From NCBI RefSeq assembly GCF_001458775.1, contig NZ_CZPZ01000033.1, forward strand, positions 1 through 64,000: DNA of 64,000 nucleotides, given 5' to 3'. Shown one piece after another: positions 17,333 through 24,995 of the stretch. Each line of letters opens with the position of its first letter. Position 1 is the stretch's first letter. Under the pieces are notes generated by a model that saw nothing but the letters and a program-made list of their open reading frames with translations, did no database searches and was not told the DNA's origin. Position numbers and translations under genes: made by a program. The DNA is from Candidatus Nitrospira nitrificans (GTDB lineage Bacteria > Nitrospirota > Nitrospiria > Nitrospirales > Nitrospiraceae).

Positions 17333-17393
17333 CACGAGTTATTCAATAACTTGAGGGCTGGAAATGAGATCGAGGTGTATCGACGAACTCTTC

Positions 17394-18137
17394 TTACCGC
17401 GATTTCATGAACACAATATCGCCGTAATAGGCGGTGGCTCGTTCCTTCGTATTGTCCGTATCGCTCATGATGGCAATGCCGTTGATCATCGGCGGCTCTT
17501 CTCCGAAGGCCTTCTTATAATCCTCGTAGATGTTACGGGACTCCTCGATCCAGGCACCGAGTTTTTGAGGCCCGCTCTCAACCACCACCATTTTGACGAA
17601 ATCCGTATAGGCATTGTCGATCATCGCCCCAACGGGAGTCTTAGTTTCCCACACGTAATTGATGGCTCCGATCGGAATATCTCCAAACAGCGCCTGGCCC
17701 GCCTTGTACTTGAGTTTCTTGCCGAAACTGACCTTGTCCGGGTCATATTCAAAGGTAATGTAAAGCCGGGCCGGATAGTCGTCCCCGTCTTTTCGCGTGG
17801 CATCGCTCTTCTGGAGTAAATTCTGGACCTTCCACCGCCATCGCACGATCGGAAATTCCTTCGGATCGATCCTGATTTCTTTGGTCAAGCCGGATGCCGA
17901 TGCATCGCTCATGGCCTTGACGACCACTTGCGCCTCGTCTTTCACCAGTTCGTAGGTCGTCAGCCTCGGGATCTTCTTGAAGGTCAGCGGCATCCAGCCA
18001 TCGGGCAAACTTGTGCCCGGTTCACTTGCGGAAAACTTCCCCACCTCAAGCACAGCACCGCCCTCTGCCCGTGCGGAGGTGACCGGCAACAGCGCGCACA
18101 AAATGACCAGCATGCGTGCCAACATATTCGGTCTCAT
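17394..18137 (-). CDS. DUF3047 secreted protein, copy a
   Basis: A 247-residue protein from the ATG at 18135-18137, which has a GGAG site nine bases upstream and gives a clean signal peptide (MLARMLVILCALLPVTSARA). A longer frame to 18395 exists but has no sensible N-terminus. The body matches DUF3047: WMPLTFKKIPRLTTYELVKD, then a central WRWKVQNLL, a DYPARLYITFEYD segment and a C-terminal YYGDIVF. The fold is probably a periplasmic beta-sandwich; the function is unknown. It is about 80% identical by eye to the gene at 24156. It follows the methyltransferase gene by 130 bases. Confidence 0.9.
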   Translation of the reverse strand: MRPNMLARMLVILCALLPVTSARAEGGAVLEVGKFSASEPGTSLPDGWMPLTFKKIPRLTTYELVKDEAQVVVKAMSDASASGLTKEIRIDPKEFPIVRWRWKVQNLLQKSDATRKDGDDYPARLYITFEYDPDKVSFGKKLKYKAGQALFGDIPIGAINYVWETKTPVGAMIDNAYTDFVKMVVVESGPQKLGAWIEESRNIYEDYKKAFGEEPPMINGIAIMSDTDNTKERATAYYGDIVFMKSR

Positions 18138-18267
18138 TGTGTGAGTCTCCATACTACCGTATCCTTCACACAAACAGCTGCTCATTCGGGTTCGGCAGCC
18201 AGTCTTCCATGACTCGATCAGTTTCCGAAGGACCGCGGCTATATACACAGTTTGGCCCGACTCAAGC

Positions 18268-19230
18268 TCACACCGCATCGCCGTACCTTCCATCGCATAG
18301 GGCGCCGCGCGCGAAGGTCTTGAATGGCCCCCTGACCCGTTGTTGAAGCACGTCCAACTTCCGCCCCTCATCCAATTCGAGTGCTTGAACCACATTGGCT
18401 GTAATATCCTCTTCCCTAATCAGGCGCAATGAGCTTTCCGCCAGTTCAGTCTGCAGACGTTCCAGGGCGCCTCCTCGTCGTGAGGCAAAGCCTGCGAAGA
18501 GGAGCTCTCCTCCGGGCCGAAGTACACGGTACACCTCCGCCAGAAAGCGCGGGATTGAAAGATAACAGTGGGCGCTCTCGATGTTGATCGCGACATCGAA
18601 ACCCGAAGCCTCGAACACAAGATTCTCCGCGTCTCCTTGTACATACCGCGGCCCTGTGTCTGTTTGATGATGTGCACGTGCTAAGGTTGTGGCACTTTGG
18701 GAGAAATCCAGCGCGATGAACGTCTTTGGCTTGAGGGTCCGTGCGAGGTAGGCCGCGCCGCCTCCGCGTCCGCTCCCAATCTCGATCACATCCAGGTCGG
18801 TTAACCGATCTCTCCGCGATCCTAAGGTAGCCACATACCTGTAGAGTTGCAGTGCAAAGCGTTCCGTGTCATGGAGTCCGAGGTTCTGGGGATGTGCATC
18901 GGATCCCAGTTCCGCATAGCCATAGTTCATGGTCGTCCACTCGCCGAACGGATAGCACCGCGCAAGGTACTCGTACAACAGGCGCGAGCCAATACGCTCA
19001 GCTTGTTCAGCAATAAAGCCATGACCGCGCGCACCAGTTACATAGCGCCAGGGGTGATTAAGCTGGAGGACATGCGTTTCAACCATGCCAAGACTGCTTG
19101 AGAAGCATGGCTCTGGCTGGAAGGCGAGTTGTGAGCCATAGATTTGAACCCGATAGGTTAAACCATTGATCGCATGACACAATCTTTTCAAATCTGGAAA
19201 TGACCTTTCAGTGTTGATACATACATCCAC
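18268..19230 (-). CDS. SAM-dependent methyltransferase
   Basis: A 320-residue class I methyltransferase. Motif I is VIEIGSGRGGGAAYLA (about 147-162), followed by FIALDFSQ (motif II), the FDVAINIESAHCY segment (motif IV region) and VLRPGGELLFAGF (motif V). An upstream segment, TTMNYGYAELG, resembles the MNYGY segment of lipid-type methyltransferases such as the phthiotriol dimycocerosate enzymes, suggesting a hydrophobic or polyketide-like substrate. The start overlaps the end of the KAS III-like gene by 23 bases. An internal start such as MVETHVLQL (residue 49) is possible. It is the last gene of the five-gene operon. Confidence 0.88.
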   Translation of the reverse strand: MDVCINTERSFPDLKRLCHAINGLTYRVQIYGSQLAFQPEPCFSSSLGMVETHVLQLNHPWRYVTGARGHGFIAEQAERIGSRLLYEYLARCYPFGEWTTMNYGYAELGSDAHPQNLGLHDTERFALQLYRYVATLGSRRDRLTDLDVIEIGSGRGGGAAYLARTLKPKTFIALDFSQSATTLARAHHQTDTGPRYVQGDAENLVFEASGFDVAINIESAHCYLSIPRFLAEVYRVLRPGGELLFAGFASRRGGALERLQTELAESSLRLIREEDITANVVQALELDEGRKLDVLQQRVRGPFKTFARGALCDGRYGDAV

Positions 19231-20278
19231 CGTACAAGAATTTGCTTGCTTCGGCGCCTAATATGAGAACGCGTTGCCCTTTTTTAAGGTCTCCGGATCG
19301 GCGCAGCATATCGAGGCTGACCCAAATTGCCGCTGACCCCAGATTTCCCAATTTGTCCGCGGTGACATAGATCTTCTCTTCCGGCACGTCAAAGTATTGG
19401 CTGAAAAGATGGGCCAGACGTCCATTGGCCTGATGGGGAAGAATCCAATCGAACTCCCGCAGAGCATGTCCGCGCTGCATCATGGCCTCGACTCCGCGCA
19501 CAAACAGCTCTCCTCCGTGCTCCCGCACGGTTTGCACATGATGTCGAAACACGGGCACCTGCATGCCGCACTGCGGCTGAGAAGATCCTCCGCCATCAAT
19601 GAAGAAGCCCGGCTCTCGCCCAAGACCGATCTGACCTACAAAAATATTAGAGAGGATCTGGTCCTCAGATCCATCGTCCTGCCCAACGATCACAGCCCCG
19701 GCGCCATCACCCATCTGCACGTAATTCACGAGTTGTTCGTTGTTAAGAAACGCATCGGAAATGTCGCAATACGGAGACCCTGTCTCACTTCCGACAATAG
19801 CGATGGCCTGAAGCCTGTTCGCGGCTGCCATTGCCGACGCGATTTGCAGCCCGTTGGCGAACCCAGTGCATGCCTGACGCAGTTCTAGATAGGGGCCCGT
19901 GTACCGAAGCTCATCGGCGACCCAAGCGATATTGGGCGGCAACAGCGTGTGAGGGGATGAGGTATGGCCGATAAGGTACTCGATCGAACCGATGCCGATT
20001 CCCGCTTCCCGCATCGCTCCGGAAAGCGCAGCGTGGCACAACTGCGGCGCCTGCATGGTAATACGTGTGCCACTGAGTGGAACTTGCAGATCACGGCTGA
20101 CATGGCGATGCGTGATCCCAAGCCGATAGGCAATACTTCTTGCACGTCGCACCGCGCGAGGATTGCAGGCATTCTCCAGCGCTTCAAACAAGGTGTCATT
20201 GCTGACCGCAGGCCCAGGCAGGCTTCGACCAGTGCCGAGCAGCTTCAGACGATTGATCGCGAAGTGCGCAGCCGTCAC
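19208..20278 (-). CDS. 3-oxoacyl-ACP synthase III-like enzyme
   Basis: A 356-residue thiolase-fold enzyme with the complete KAS III triad: Cys137 in RQACTGFANGL, His282 in LPHQANGRL and Asn312 in GNLGSAA. It is longer at the N-terminus than FabH and has the insert RRARSIAYRLGITHRHVSRD. No fab or acpP genes are nearby, so housekeeping fatty-acid initiation is unlikely. Relatives of this kind join acyl groups in specialised lipid, polyketide or resorcinol pathways. Its start overlaps the upstream diiron gene in ATGA (4 bases), showing translational coupling. Substrates cannot be read from sequence. Confidence 0.92.
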   Translation of the reverse strand: MTAAHFAINRLKLLGTGRSLPGPAVSNDTLFEALENACNPRAVRRARSIAYRLGITHRHVSRDLQVPLSGTRITMQAPQLCHAALSGAMREAGIGIGSIEYLIGHTSSPHTLLPPNIAWVADELRYTGPYLELRQACTGFANGLQIASAMAAANRLQAIAIVGSETGSPYCDISDAFLNNEQLVNYVQMGDGAGAVIVGQDDGSEDQILSNIFVGQIGLGREPGFFIDGGGSSQPQCGMQVPVFRHHVQTVREHGGELFVRGVEAMMQRGHALREFDWILPHQANGRLAHLFSQYFDVPEEKIYVTADKLGNLGSAAIWVSLDMLRRSGDLKKGQRVLILGAEASKFLYGGCMYQH

Positions 20279-21033
20279 AGCGCTCCCCTCTTGATGCGAG
20301 TGAATAACAAGCCTGCGTCTATCCCAATATCCTCAAAGGAGTCGGCCACGTGCTCAAGCATGCCTGTCAGGCCGCCACGGACGAGTTCCCCCAAGCGCGA
20401 ATAGTCATCACGGGAAAGGCCCAAGGCAAACGCATGTCGGCGGCTGATCGATACATGCCGTGCTTCGTCGTGCCGAATGTGTTCAACCAGCCGGCCAAGC
20501 ATGCTGTTGCCGCCTACCGCACTATGCTCCATGTACCACATGATGGCGCACACGGCACTATCCAATTGTGACACTTGTCCGAAATGATGCGCGACGGTTT
20601 CAGCTCGTCCCAGGCTCGCGAAGTACGCCTGCGACCGCCGTCGAATCGCATGTTCGTCACTGGCAGCCGGTAGGTTGGCACGTAAGACTTGCAAGCTCGC
20701 TTCGTGGGCAGTCTCGTCATTCTCGATGCCGTGCAAGAGCGTCACGCTCACATGCAGAGTCTTGCGTGTCAAATGTCCGTCTTCAATCCGAAAGAGGTTA
20801 ATGGCGGATTGTTCCCCGCACAACAAGGCAGGCGCTAACCTGGCCAGCGCCTCCTGATGCTTGCTCTTCATTATCAAGGGAAGAGTAGAGAACTCCTTAC
20901 TCCATTGAGCGAACCAGGTCCGCGCTGGGGTCGAACGCCATCGCGGAGGAGCAAAGCATCGGAACACTTTTCTCGGACTGTTTGCACTGTCGTGAGGCGC
21001 TGGCCAGGCACCAAGAGGATTGGTGTTCTTCAT
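20275..21033 (-). CDS. ferritin-like diiron protein, probable oxygenase
   Basis: A 252-residue helical protein with the full carboxylate-bridged diiron signature: Glu74 (CGEQSA), Glu107-x-x-His110 (ETAH), Glu169 (YMEHSAV) and Glu190-x-x-His193 (EARH). The order E...ExxH...E...ExxH is that of ribonucleotide reductase R2, AurF-type N-oxygenases and soluble monooxygenases. Known members oxidise amines, alkanes or acyl chains using O2. The closest subfamily is not evident. It starts seven bases after the MMPL stop and overlaps the KAS III-like gene by four bases. The basic N-terminal 55 residues may be partly untranslated if MKSKHQE (residue 55) is the true start. Confidence 0.82.
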   Translation of the reverse strand: MKNTNPLGAWPAPHDSANSPRKVFRCFAPPRWRSTPARTWFAQWSKEFSTLPLIMKSKHQEALARLAPALLCGEQSAINLFRIEDGHLTRKTLHVSVTLLHGIENDETAHEASLQVLRANLPAASDEHAIRRRSQAYFASLGRAETVAHHFGQVSQLDSAVCAIMWYMEHSAVGGNSMLGRLVEHIRHDEARHVSISRRHAFALGLSRDDYSRLGELVRGGLTGMLEHVADSFEDIGIDAGLLFTRIKRGAL

Positions 21034-21040
21034 GAAACCC

Positions 21041-23311
21041 TTATGGCACCGTTTGCCGAAGGAGGTTTTTGGAATAGGTACGTTGCAGCAATGCCGGCAG
21101 CACGAGAAGATCCGCTGCCAAGGCGACCAAGATGATGGAGACAGAAAGACTACTCATGGCCAGAATAGGAGCGAAATCGGAAAGCAAGCCTATCAACAAT
21201 CCCATTGATAACGTCATCGTCGTGATGATCAGAGCCGGTCCAACCTGGTTGAGCACCGCCGGGATGACCATGTCGCTCTGAGTCTGATTCAGTCGCCAAT
21301 ACCTCGCCAGAAGGTAGATCGTATCATCCACGATGATGCCCAGGATCATGCCCAGCACCACCGCTCCCCCAAGAGCAATATTGCCATCCACCAGCGCCCA
21401 CAGCGCATACGCCACGAGAACAGGAACAACATTGCACACGACACCGATCCACGCGGCCTTCACAGAACGTAAAATCAATCCGGCAATGAGGGCGATGGCG
21501 ACAAGACCAATACTGAGTGAGTAGACCATACTGGCCGCGTTTCTCTGACCAAGATGGGCGAACGTGAGATTGGCGCCGGCACCGCCTTGATAGGAAAAAG
21601 GCGTGAGATGACGATCAAGCCAGGCACGGACCCGATCATCGAACGCAATCATGGTTCGTGCGTCAAGGTTTTTGAGATAGACCGCAGCATGAATCGCCGA
21701 GTAGTCTTCGGATACATGATGCTGCAGCGACAAGGCAGCAGGCGTGTTGTCCTCCGCAATTCGTTGATAGCGCATCAATGATGATGCGTCTCGCACACCC
21801 ACCCCTTGGCGGATTCGAGGAAGATCGGCAATGGTCACCACACGGTTTACCTCTGGCTGTGTACGCAGCCAGAGTGAGAACGCTTCCATCCTTTCAAGGA
21901 ACATCTGCTGGAAAATCCCGTACCGTTGGCCCGTCTCGAGAGAATAGCTAATCTTATTCACACCACTAAACTCTTCATCAATAAGCCTGGTAGCTTGGCG
22001 GAACTCATGGCTATCCGGGAAATATTCAAACACATTGTCGTTAATCTCATTACCAAACACTCCCACAGCGGAAAGAAGAGCCACCAGAGTAAACGATGTC
22101 ACGATCGACCGAGAATTGGTGGTAATGAATCGAATCAACAGGGGAATCTGAAACACGGTGCGAAAATCGAGACCTGGCTTCACCTTCACGCCGCACAGTA
22201 ATACCGGCAATAGAATCACCGTCACCAGGAACGACAACGCAATACCGAACGCAACAATATACCCAACGGTCCGTACCGGCGGCGAGGGACTGAATGCGAG
22301 TCCTAGGAATCCCAGGATCGTTGTGAAGTTGGTGAGAGCGAGCGGCAACAAATTGAGTGTCAGCGCATGCCGGACGCTCTCCATTGGATTCTGCCCGTCC
22401 GCACGGCTATGGAGATATGATGTGGTGAAATGAACGGAGCTTGCGATGGCCATGCTGACAATGATCACGGGGACATACACAGCGATCGACGCCAACTCGA
22501 ATTCTAACCAACCGGCAACTCCGAAGGCACCCACCACTGGGAGAAGGGCGGTGAGCAGGATGGAGACGGCGACCCAAAAGCTAGAAAAGAGTACCCAGAG
22601 GGTCGCCAGGAAAAGCAGGATCAGGGCCGGCAAGAACATCTTCAAATCATGTCGAACCACCAGAACATAGGCTTCTTTCAGGGCTAACGTACCGGTGTAG
22701 TGGGCAATGATTGGAACCTGAGCGAGGCTGATCTCTTTCTTGACGAAGGCCCGCAGTTGCGCCATGGTGTTCAGCAGAACATCGGCCTTCCCGTCGCCGG
22801 GCAGGGCAAGAGTTATTTCGATAAGCGCGAACCGACCATCTTCCGACAATAGCAGGCGGCGTGCATATTCATCACTCAACAAACGGTCGCGGTTGGGATG
22901 GAGGACAGCAGGTTTGGTTGAGGGGGTTCCTTCATTATCCGAATCATGACCTTCAATCTGGACGGTATCAATTTCCGGATGGAGATCAACGAAGTCGGCA
23001 ATGGAACTGACGCGCTTAATAAATGGGAGGGCTCGCTCAGCGGCGATGATACGATCAATGACCGCATAATGGGCAGGAATGAGCATGTCGTGTTTCACAC
23101 TCTCGAGAATAATAATGACACTATCGTCGCCGGCGTACTTATCAGCCAGATCATTGTTGACGGCAAGCAGCGGATCATTGGTGTCAAAATAGGCGTCGTA
23201 ATTGGCGTTCAAGCGCAATCCGCTGGCGCCGTACCCAAGCGCGCCAATCACCACCAGGACGGCAGCAACGGAAACCCATGGGTACTTCATAGTTGTCGCT
23301 ATTAACAACAT
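21041..23311 (-). CDS. MMPL/RND-family exporter
   Basis: A 756-residue permease with two repeats. Each has one N-terminal helix (residues 10-33; about 415), a large periplasmic loop and a five-helix bundle (about 215-390; 590-740). GAGANLTFAHLGQRNA precedes the second bundle. Length and layout match the MMPL/HpnN group, which move lipids such as mycolates or hopanoids to the outer envelope, rather than the 1000-residue AcrB group. No membrane-fusion protein or TolC gene is adjacent. It overlaps the YHS lipoprotein gene by ten bases and precedes the diiron gene by seven, so export appears wired to the synthase-oxidase-methyltransferase set. Confidence 0.9.
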   Translation of the reverse strand: MLLIATTMKYPWVSVAAVLVVIGALGYGASGLRLNANYDAYFDTNDPLLAVNNDLADKYAGDDSVIIILESVKHDMLIPAHYAVIDRIIAAERALPFIKRVSSIADFVDLHPEIDTVQIEGHDSDNEGTPSTKPAVLHPNRDRLLSDEYARRLLLSEDGRFALIEITLALPGDGKADVLLNTMAQLRAFVKKEISLAQVPIIAHYTGTLALKEAYVLVVRHDLKMFLPALILLFLATLWVLFSSFWVAVSILLTALLPVVGAFGVAGWLEFELASIAVYVPVIIVSMAIASSVHFTTSYLHSRADGQNPMESVRHALTLNLLPLALTNFTTILGFLGLAFSPSPPVRTVGYIVAFGIALSFLVTVILLPVLLCGVKVKPGLDFRTVFQIPLLIRFITTNSRSIVTSFTLVALLSAVGVFGNEINDNVFEYFPDSHEFRQATRLIDEEFSGVNKISYSLETGQRYGIFQQMFLERMEAFSLWLRTQPEVNRVVTIADLPRIRQGVGVRDASSLMRYQRIAEDNTPAALSLQHHVSEDYSAIHAAVYLKNLDARTMIAFDDRVRAWLDRHLTPFSYQGGAGANLTFAHLGQRNAASMVYSLSIGLVAIALIAGLILRSVKAAWIGVVCNVVPVLVAYALWALVDGNIALGGAVVLGMILGIIVDDTIYLLARYWRLNQTQSDMVIPAVLNQVGPALIITTMTLSMGLLIGLLSDFAPILAMSSLSVSIILVALAADLLVLPALLQRTYSKNLLRQTVP

Positions 23312-23760
23312 GACCTGTCGGCTAGGCTTTTAAGCTTCTCAGCCCAATGGTCATCAGCTTTTCTGACCTTGCCCGAGAGGTCTTCGAGCCAGTTGTCTCT
23401 GACGCGCAGGCTGTAATTGAGGTACAGTTTGCCTGCATGGATGGTCCACGCTTCGGGAACCGTTGAGGCGATGAAACCTTTGCTCATCGCATAGGCGCAA
23501 TAACCCCCGTACTGGGGCATGTACGCCTCAGGAGCATTTGCGAACAGGTCGCGGTTCGTTTTGTTTTCAAAGTACCAGGTCGCTCCCGCATGTTGGTGCG
23601 TGAACTGGGAGCTACCTTTGACTGGCCTGTTTTGGCTGAAGTAGGCCACCGGGTCATAGCCGCGGATCGCAACATCATCTGTGGTGAACGTCCTGCTTTC
23701 TAAGGTGGTGCAGCCCACACAGATAAACACCAGCAGGGTTAAGAAATAAAGGAGTCTCAT
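23302..23760 (-). CDS. YHS-domain lipoprotein
   Basis: A 152-residue protein with a lipoprotein signal (LLVFICVGC, lipidated Cys at 16) and a YHS domain at about 32-100 (VAIRGYDPVAYFSQNRPVKG, then GGYCAYAMSKG). YHS domains are small and often metal-associated; this form (YDPVAYF...GYCAYA) is common in secreted proteins. The C-terminus ends in two Cys. It heads the five-gene operon. Location at the envelope beside an MMPL exporter suggests a periplasmic partner for the exported product or for metal supply to the oxidase, which is inference. Confidence 0.88.
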   Translation of the reverse strand: MRLLYFLTLLVFICVGCTTLESRTFTTDDVAIRGYDPVAYFSQNRPVKGSSQFTHQHAGATWYFENKTNRDLFANAPEAYMPQYGGYCAYAMSKGFIASTVPEAWTIHAGKLYLNYSLRVRDNWLEDLSGKVRKADDHWAEKLKSLADRSCC

Positions 23761-23848
23761 GTTTATCCCATCATATCCGTTCCGTTTATAGATTATCGCT
23801 ACGTGGGCAACAGATCTGTCTTCTTGAGCTAATCAGCTGACACGACCA

Positions 23849-23899
23849 GAGGGCGTCGCCATCATCGCTGAAAGCTAACGCGCCGTGATTGCCCAGCCC
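23849..23899 (-). pseudogene. fossil fragment of a second beta-propeller gene
   Basis: On the minus strand this stretch reads GLGNHGALAFSDDGDAL, matching GLGNQGALVFSDDGDELL of the propeller at 16027-17130 (near 16866-16916). It joins directly to sequence that corresponds to the promoter region of copy 1 (17155 onward), so most of the gene, including its signal peptide, was deleted. It shows that the DUF3047-propeller unit was once complete twice. Confidence 0.8.
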
Positions 23900-24152
23900 A
23901 CAACATTGCAAGAACGCGACTTCCCCACGATAGCGTCGCCATCTCACGCCGTTCTCGCGAAAGCATCACATTTTCGTCACGGAGTTGAACCTTGGGGCAG
24001 CAATCTCCGACCCCCAGGAGGATTCAATAGCCAGGAAACAGAAGGATGATGGGATATGTGGGATTCGACTACGGGTGTGTTTGAACGTGGTTGTTCAACG
24101 AGCAGAGGGTTGGAACGCAATCGAGGCGTGTTGCGCCGCTCTTCTTACTCAT
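23900..24152. repeat. duplicated regulatory region (partner of 17151-17393)
   Basis: Collinear with the region upstream of the propeller in copy 1: shared blocks include TTGCAAGAAC, CCCACGATAG, CGCCATCTCAC, the 28-bp motif, GGGATTCGAC and TTGTTCAA/AATAACTT-type remnants, up to CTCTTCTTAC. The DUF3047 genes on the right side of both blocks are also paralogous, so the repeat unit exceeds 1 kb. Confidence 0.8.
23956..23983 (-). promoter_or_regulatory. conserved 28-bp motif, copy 2
   Basis: Differs from copy 1 at only a few positions. Because it lies in duplicated DNA it is not independent evidence. The propeller it served is now a fossil, but the motif remains largely intact, 196 bases upstream of the YHS start, so it could have been captured by the five-gene operon. 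Confidence 0.45.
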
Positions 24153-24154
24153 AG

Positions 24155-24229
24155 GTCAGCAATTTGTACGACAGTAGATCAAGCATCCACGCGGGTTGCA
24201 GGGCTGTTTGTGTTGTCTAAGTTGCTGAC
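24155..24229. mobile_element. MITE-like insertion at the 3' end of DUF3047 copy b
   Basis: About 75 bp bounded by GTCAGCAA (24155-24162) and TTGCTGAC (24222-24229), perfect complements. The match extends imperfectly to 14 bp. The corresponding place in copy a has no such DNA. The insert replaces the normal C-terminus of copy b (FMKSR-stop) with a 26-residue unrelated tail. It may instead be a stem structure gained by other means. Confidence 0.5.
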
Positions 24230-24995
24230 TTCGGAGTAATGCTTTTATAAACACAATATCACCGTAGTAGGCAATGGCCCGCTCTTTCGTGTTGTCCGTA
24301 TCGCTCATGATCGTCACCCCGTTGATCATCGGCGGTTCTTCTCCGAATGCCTTCTTATAGTCTTCGTAGATGTTGCGTGACTCATTGATCCATATGCCGA
24401 GATTGTGAGGGCCACTTTCCACGACCACCATTTTCACAAAATCTGTATAGGCGTTATCGATAATCTCGCCGACCGGTGCTCTCCTCTCCCAGATATAGTT
24501 GATCGCTCCGATGGGAATGTCTCCGAACAAGATTTGACCGGCCTTGTGCTTGAGTTTTTTGCTCATGCTCACCTTGTCAGGGTCGTATTCGAAGGTGATG
24601 TAGAGCCGAGCCGGATAATCGTCTCCGTCTTTGCGCGTGGCATCGCTGTTCTTCAAAAGATGGTCGACCTTCCAACGCCACCGCACGACGGGAAATTCCT
24701 TGGGGTCGATCCTGACCTCCTTGGTCAATCCCGATGCGGACGCATCGCTCATGGCCTTGACGACGACATGTTCGCCGTCTCTCACCAACTCATATGTCGT
24801 GAGCGTAGGGATTTTCTTGAAGGTCAACGGCTTCCAGCCATCCGGCAGACGGCCGCCTGGCTCGCTTGCGGAAAACTTGCCCACTTCCAGCGCAGTTCCA
24901 CCCTCTGCCATAAGCCATGCCGGAGCGATGAACAACCACATGGCAATCCCTAGGCCCGTCGCGATCAGCCTCTTGCTGTTTTCGTCGGACTCCAT
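24156..24995 (-). CDS. DUF3047 secreted protein, copy b, with altered C-terminus
   Basis: A 279-residue paralogue of the gene at 17394. It has an N-terminal hydrophobic signal (TGLGIAMWLFIAPAWLMA) and the same DUF3047 body (GWKPLTFKKIPTLTTYELVR through YYGDIVFIK). The shared part ends at VFIK. It then runs into ALLRSQQLRQHKQPCNPRGC and beyond, encoded by the inserted 75-90 bp, adding three cysteines absent from copy a. It starts four bases after the flavoprotein stop, so it is translated with that gene. The odd tail may be tolerated, as the core is complete. Confidence 0.88.
   Translation of the reverse strand: MESDENSKRLIATGLGIAMWLFIAPAWLMAEGGTALEVGKFSASEPGGRLPDGWKPLTFKKIPTLTTYELVRDGEHVVVKAMSDASASGLTKEVRIDPKEFPVVRWRWKVDHLLKNSDATRKDGDDYPARLYITFEYDPDKVSMSKKLKHKAGQILFGDIPIGAINYIWERRAPVGEIIDNAYTDFVKMVVVESGPHNLGIWINESRNIYEDYKKAFGEEPPMINGVTIMSDTDNTKERAIAYYGDIVFIKALLRSQQLRQHKQPCNPRGCLIYCRTNC

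Follow-up and report, generated by a model that had tools for sequence, protein, structure and literature searches.

An accessory Nitrospira cassette, exchanged horizontally, that may make and export a specialised acyl or lipid compound

A compact group of genes in Candidatus Nitrospira nitrificans raises the question of what a KAS III-like synthase, a putative diiron oxidase, a methyltransferase, an MMPL-type exporter and a YHS-domain lipoprotein might do together. The genes lie within a 64,000-nucleotide stretch of contig NZ_CZPZ01000033.1, hereafter the window. A first-pass annotation had described five genes on one strand. All five are indeed present but, as judged from the ORF list and the sequence of the window, only four of them are intact ORFs, all on the minus strand: those of the YHS lipoprotein, the MMPL protein, the diiron-like protein and the KAS (Table 1). 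The methyltransferase gene is not intact. The spacings given for the other genes, -10 bases between YHS and MMPL, +7 between MMPL and the diiron-like gene and -4 between the latter and KAS, match the ORF coordinates.

Table 1. Positions of the cassette genes, their flanks and the junctions in the window.
Feature	Coordinates	Strand	Basis
YHS-domain lipoprotein, cassette gene 1	23302..23760	-	NCBIfam NF041384 YHS_seleno_dom, lipobox-like ..VGC
MMPL/RND-type exporter, 756 aa	21041..23311	-	PF03176
ExxH protein of 252 aa, probably a ferritin-like diiron oxidase	20275..21033	-	motif; outside Pfam families
KAS III-like synthase, 356 aa, Cys137/His282/Asn312	19208..20278	-	PF08541 and PF08545, both above cut-off
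Methyltransferase gene with frame disruptions close to both ends	18222..19139	-	alignment to intact orthologues
33-bp remnant of the 3' end of the convergent P450 gene, which is otherwise deleted; marks the deletion breakpoint	18179..18210	+	blastn
DUF3047 copy b, came in with the cassette (flank)	17394..18152	-	PF11249, 264 bits
DUF3047 copy a, resident, beside FAD oxidoreductase (flank)	24156..24995	-	position in cassette-free genomes
Left junction of the cassette	23836..24148	-	blastn blocks, tblastn of propeller protein

The methyltransferase gene, METHYLTRANSFERASE, looks broken in the window genome when it is compared to its intact orthologues, which are found at L012:10270-11193 in genome G065 and on contig L007 in G062. 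Against these copies the homology breaks up into three segments whose frames are shifted (19139-19047, 19059-18298 and 18308-18222). In the ORF that had been taken for an intact gene (18268-19230), the first ~60 residues and the last residues are off-frame. Judged by the orthologues, the gene starts near 19139 and leaves about 68 bases between itself and the KAS stop; the 23-base overlap with KAS described in the first-pass annotation is therefore an artefact of the off-frame 5' extension of this ORF. The tail of the methyltransferase is read within the next ORF (17394-18395) and, for this reason, the DUF3047 ORF, with its listed start at 18395, looks too long.

Such a disruption might come from a sequencing or assembly error, in which case all five genes would be functional in the window genome. 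The core frame of the methyltransferase is in fact conserved (dN/dS 0.17-0.22), and the source is a 36-contig assembly. However, several indels cluster in the methyltransferase gene alone. The other four genes of the cassette, like FADox, propeller and HK in its flanks, align with their orthologues from end to end without a frameshift; moreover, the disruption adjoins a genuine deletion. We consider an error of this kind rather unlikely.

The intact L012 methyltransferase spans the whole phthiotriol/phenolphthiotriol dimycocerosate methyltransferase model (184 bits, cut-off 300), as does the intact L007 copy, and the L012 protein scores 177 against the Mtf2 model (cut-off 400). The likeness to lipid methyltransferases, previously noticed in a short segment, holds over the full length, and sequence comparison places the enzyme as a homologue of the PhMT and Mtf2 lipid O-methyltransferases, not as an equivalog. 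A methyltransferase domain matching mad2 was the sole PADLOC match, and a defence system was rejected.

The set of five parts proved to be incomplete, since the first reading had overlooked a cytochrome P450 gene, an ancestral member that is deleted in the window. In G062 and G065 this sixth cassette gene is convergent with the methyltransferase gene, tail to tail; it encodes 402 residues, and the two copies are 94% identical. The L012 protein belongs to the P450 family (PF00067, 83 bits vs. a cut-off of 22.8) and its sequence contains the F..G.H.C.G haem motif. When the L012 P450 gene was compared to the window by blastn, the trace of its 3' end was recovered at 91% identity over 33 bp. Window positions 17390-18179 correspond to L012:7984-8773 and positions 18179-18417 to L012:10231-10470 (blastn). 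A clean deletion of ~1.46 kb has taken the rest of the P450 gene from the window genome. Methylation by the set, as first proposed, is not supported for this genome, where the methyltransferase is frame-disrupted and its P450 partner deleted; the last tailoring steps have probably been lost.

The cassette is present in 4 of 79 Nitrospira genomes (the window genome, G062, G065 and G089), and the diiron gene and the KAS subfamily are confined to exactly the same four. Among 396 sampled Nitrospirota genomes the diiron gene was absent from other genera, in collections of limited extent where homologues outside Nitrospira are under-sampled. Neighbourhood comparison confirmed the order of the five genes in G062 and G065, two other species, which also carry the P450 gene. 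G089 has the MMPL-diiron-KAS block at another site, on contig L006; P450 is missing there, the methyltransferase gene is reduced to a stub, and similarity to the cassette ends ~120 bases past the KAS stop. This contig begins just before MMPL, so the position of YHS lies outside it. An HD-GYP-like gene and then an mraZ-like gene (names read from the sequence) follow KAS on L006 (4205-7115), in a neighbourhood unlike that of the window. As the methyltransferase is damaged or truncated in two of the four carriers, and P450 is missing in two, the six genes may not make up one obligate pathway.

Along 18179-23835 the window shares 90-91% identity with L012 and L007, as compared to 74-82% for most flanking blocks (blastn), and dS is 0.16-0.35 in cassette genes vs. 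0.41-1.66 in flanking genes. Four cassette-free genomes (G011, G006, G019 and G007) show the empty site, with the order SUOX-VTT-FADox-DUF3047-propeller, followed in three of them by RR-HK; the G007 contig stops at the propeller gene and the G006 contig within VTT. FADox and DUF3047 border the cassette in G065. In the window its neighbours are the resident DUF3047 gene (copy a), which has the same position as in the four cassette-free genomes and is accompanied by a propeller stub, and the incoming one (copy b), which is 93.5% identical to the cassette-adjacent DUF3047 of G065. Two DUF3047 paralogues of different origin thus flank the cassette; we know of no function for DUF3047. At the left junction the cassette leader ends at 23835, positions 23841-23901 are a fragment of the beta-propeller gene (14/17 residues in a tblastn search with the propeller protein), and positions 23905-24147 derive from the intergenic DNA that separated DUF3047 from the propeller gene at the old site. 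The whole segment 23841-24147 is the scar of the recombination that brought the cassette in. The low dS of the cassette with respect to its flanks, its sharp edges and the empty site in relatives clearly indicate that it has recently been exchanged between species by horizontal transfer. Since the four copies share this recent origin, their co-occurrence is weak evidence for a joint function.

The exchanged genes are under purifying selection. Their dN/dS is 0.11-0.47, and the substitutions in KAS, the diiron gene and P450 are more conservative than their random placement would give: amino-acid changes are fewer (0/2000 for KAS and P450, 0 to 4/2000 for the diiron gene). These results bear on the possibility that the cassette in the window genome is a decaying remnant, at present functionless. 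The P450 deletion and the disrupted methyltransferase frame in the window, together with the methyltransferase stub in G089, are what decay would leave, but KAS, diiron, MMPL and YHS genes are open in all carriers where they are seen and are kept by selection, which may nevertheless predate the damage. We hold a remnant to be improbable.

The KAS protein belongs to the KAS III (thiolase-like) superfamily, as its N- and C-terminal ACP_syn_III domains exceed the Pfam cut-offs and the Cys-His-Asn triad is present. The triad, recognised in the first-pass annotation, is conserved without exception in four homologues, one of them from Streptomyces and 42% identical. The earlier view that this is not a housekeeping enzyme agrees with the two FabH-type KAS III paralogues found elsewhere in the same genome and with the narrow distribution of the cassette subfamily. 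In addition, the protein falls below the NCBIfam fabH (107 vs. 292 bits) and PRK09352 (120 vs. 249) cut-offs. A FabH role was rejected on account of these scores and of the other KAS III genes that serve the genome. A dialkylresorcinol pathway was also rejected, the KAS being far below the DarB/StlD cut-offs (56 vs. 550 and 66 vs. 450 bits). As stated before, no ACP is close by: a PP-binding domain is absent from the window, and the closest lies at C33:98629, ~35 kb past the window end. An aryl polyene pathway, which needs dedicated ACPs and KAS I/II-type pairs, was rejected in view of this absence and of the single KAS III of the cassette. The same genome (G000) holds large NRPS/PKS-type clusters at C34:2720-49106 and C12:74303-80884, with ORFs of 780-3096 aa rich in PP-binding domains.

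In the plasmid collection, the nearest relative of the KAS is the 42% identical protein encoded by Streptomyces clavuligerus pCLA1; its gene is flanked by those of a fatty-acid desaturase and of a luciferase-like monooxygenase, and the gene of a KR-ACP protein follows (L008:13829-19003), which is a specialised-metabolite setting. As in the cassette, KAS III comes directly after the gene of an iron-dependent oxidising enzyme. However, the desaturase is a membrane protein unrelated to the soluble ExxH protein, the pCLA1 cluster has a dedicated ACP, and homologues of the diiron and methyltransferase genes are absent there. Viral contigs scanned with the KAS and diiron alignments gave no relative of either.

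With DarB/StlD, CerJ and PqsD the KAS shares the thiolase fold family and the catalytic triad, whereas the partner genes of those pathways are missing from the cassette. In the main alternative reading, the core four genes belong to another pathway: KAS III and the diiron enzyme would make a small diffusible acyl signal or antibiotic of alkylpyrone, quinolone or beta-lactone type, MMPL would export it for self-protection, and the methyltransferase and P450 would be optional tailoring enzymes. The loss of the latter two from half of the carriers, in which MMPL, diiron and KAS persist, is consistent with this reading, as is the distant similarity of the KAS to the PqsD and CorB structures. However, the PqsD match is no better than those to ordinary FabH structures, the cassette has neither an anthranilate/acyl-CoA ligase nor a cyclase partner, and no resistance or regulator gene is conserved alongside it. 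A signal or antibiotic is conceivable, although we regard it as doubtful.

The ExxH protein probably carries a diiron site. Its residues E74...E107xxH110...E145...E190xxH193, the pattern on which the oxidase had first been recognised, are invariant across four homologues, down to 29% identity; D158 is as invariant as E145, and the third-helix ligand would be one or the other. The ExxH pair and two further carboxylates make up the motif of ferritin-like diiron oxygenases, with a predicted iron site. The two ExxH motifs and a probably all-helical fold recall AurF, the aldehyde-deformylating oxygenases, BioE and the heme-oxygenase-like oxidases, but no curated Pfam model reached its cut-off for the window protein (AurF, heme-oxygenase-like oxidase and ADO families included), and a weak EncB/encapsulin-ferritin NCBIfam match, found in 3/4 homologues, was below cut-off. 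A PDB profile search with this protein returned nothing below E 0.1, and its AlphaFold2 model, derived from an alignment of only 3 close homologues, had a pLDDT of 34. In the absence of a family and of a usable model, the ExxH protein is the most novel part of the cassette. Its only plasmid-borne relative found, 29% identical, is located on a Piscinibacter plasmid (L005:11824-12603); it is annotated as hypothetical and adjoins an alpha/beta hydrolase gene.

Each enzyme class of the cassette has a namesake in biotin synthesis (BioZ for KAS III, BioE for the diiron protein, BioC for the O-methyltransferase and BioI for P450), and a route to the biotin precursor pimelate might be considered. The KAS matches 3-oxopimeloyl-ACP synthase structures, the P450 matches BioI and the methyltransferase weakly matches BioC. 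All these similarities are general superfamily matches, however: the methyltransferase reaches 52-56 bits against a BioC (TIGR02072) cut-off of 185, and other methyltransferases of the same genome match BioC better. BioE is a ferritin-like diiron oxygenase with ligands E26, E53xxH56, E125 and E155xxH158 (PMC12915131), a spacing unlike E74, E107xxH110, E145/D158 and E190xxH193. The presence of the cassette in just 4/79 Nitrospira, and an MMPL exporter that would be out of place, also stand against this route, which we judge extremely improbable and have rejected.

MMPL is a member of the MMPL/RND family (76.4 vs. 20.5 bits). It shares the MMPL-type RND architecture with HpnN and the HAE3 family, with scores well below their cut-offs (66 vs. 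752 bits for the hopanoid exporter HpnN, TIGR03480, and 118 vs. 352 bits for HAE3); a hopanoid pathway was rejected on the HpnN score. The close homologues, 89-91% identical, are those of the three other carriers, and four further genomes have homologues with 27-29% identity. A distant relative in a Sulfitobacter plasmid adjoins a type I PKS; there, the genes of the PKS, of MMPL and of an outer-membrane lipoprotein-sorting protein are consecutive (L045:1093-11927). The RND/MMPL type and this neighbourhood are in line with the lipid-export role first assigned to MMPL. The YHS protein, a member of the YHS (seleno)protein family (155 vs. 70 bits) with its lipobox-like motif at the N-terminus, has 86-91% identical orthologues on L007 and L012. 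Both the MMPL and the YHS family include proteins of diverse function.

A literature search for the gene combination found no described pathway matching the set, in agreement with the first-pass annotation. The kind of system, an acyl synthase with tailoring enzymes and an MMPL exporter, is known, while its composition and the ExxH protein are new. The mycobacterial DIM/PGL system offers the closest parallel in design: a PKS-made lipid, methylated by the O-methyltransferase PhMT (Rv2952), goes to the envelope with MmpL7 and the lipoprotein LppX. By analogy, the cassette probably works like this export system without being a member of it, KAS III replacing the PKSs. A full-length O-methyltransferase of the same family, an MMPL exporter and a lipoprotein are common to both. 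In contrast, the cassette has a single KAS III and no type I PKS, FadD or ABC transporter, its lipoprotein has a YHS and not an LppX fold, a diiron enzyme and P450 are added, and all its scores are under the NCBIfam equivalog cut-offs.

Somewhat in preference to other explanations, we favour the reading of the locus as a horizontally exchanged accessory Nitrospira cassette that makes and exports a specialised acyl or lipid compound. What remains of the original proposal is the non-housekeeping KAS, the gene order, the methyltransferase match, the exporter and the lack of a matching described pathway; methylation in the window genome is not supported. The data show the content and order of the genes, the disruption, the deletion, the exchange and the purifying selection. 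The ancestral set comprised the YHS lipoprotein, MMPL, the probable ferritin-like diiron oxidase, the KAS III-like enzyme and the PhMT-like O-methyltransferase on one transcript, with P450 convergent. Each chemical step, the direction of transport and the class of product we infer as follows. The KAS III-like enzyme would join or transfer an acyl unit from the ordinary CoA/ACP pool of the cell, the diiron enzyme and P450 would oxidise the chain, and the methyltransferase would cap a hydroxyl or carboxyl. The product would leave the inner membrane through MMPL, with the YHS lipoprotein assisting on the periplasmic side. If the pathway still runs in the window genome, its end product would be unmethylated and less oxidised, because P450 is deleted and the methyltransferase frame disrupted.

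A more specific version can be put forward only tentatively. A new family of soluble ExxH (predicted diiron) oxidases and a single KAS III would act together on an acyl chain bound as a thioester and, with no PKS involved, build an O-methylated envelope lipid specific to a few Nitrospira; recombination at a shared site would carry the cassette from one species to another, and the window strain would be changing its product through the loss of P450 and methyltransferase.

Little is known of the lipids and small metabolites that nitrite-oxidising and comammox Nitrospira make. Since the window genome has lost P450 and its methyltransferase looks broken, the intact version of the cassette must be studied in relatives. 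The carriers form a natural series: two have six genes, one has four intact genes, and one is without methyltransferase and P450. If the proposed function is true, the cassette would be a compact lipid pathway, open to testing and with an unclassified oxidase, and product differences along this series would reveal the roles of the tailoring steps.
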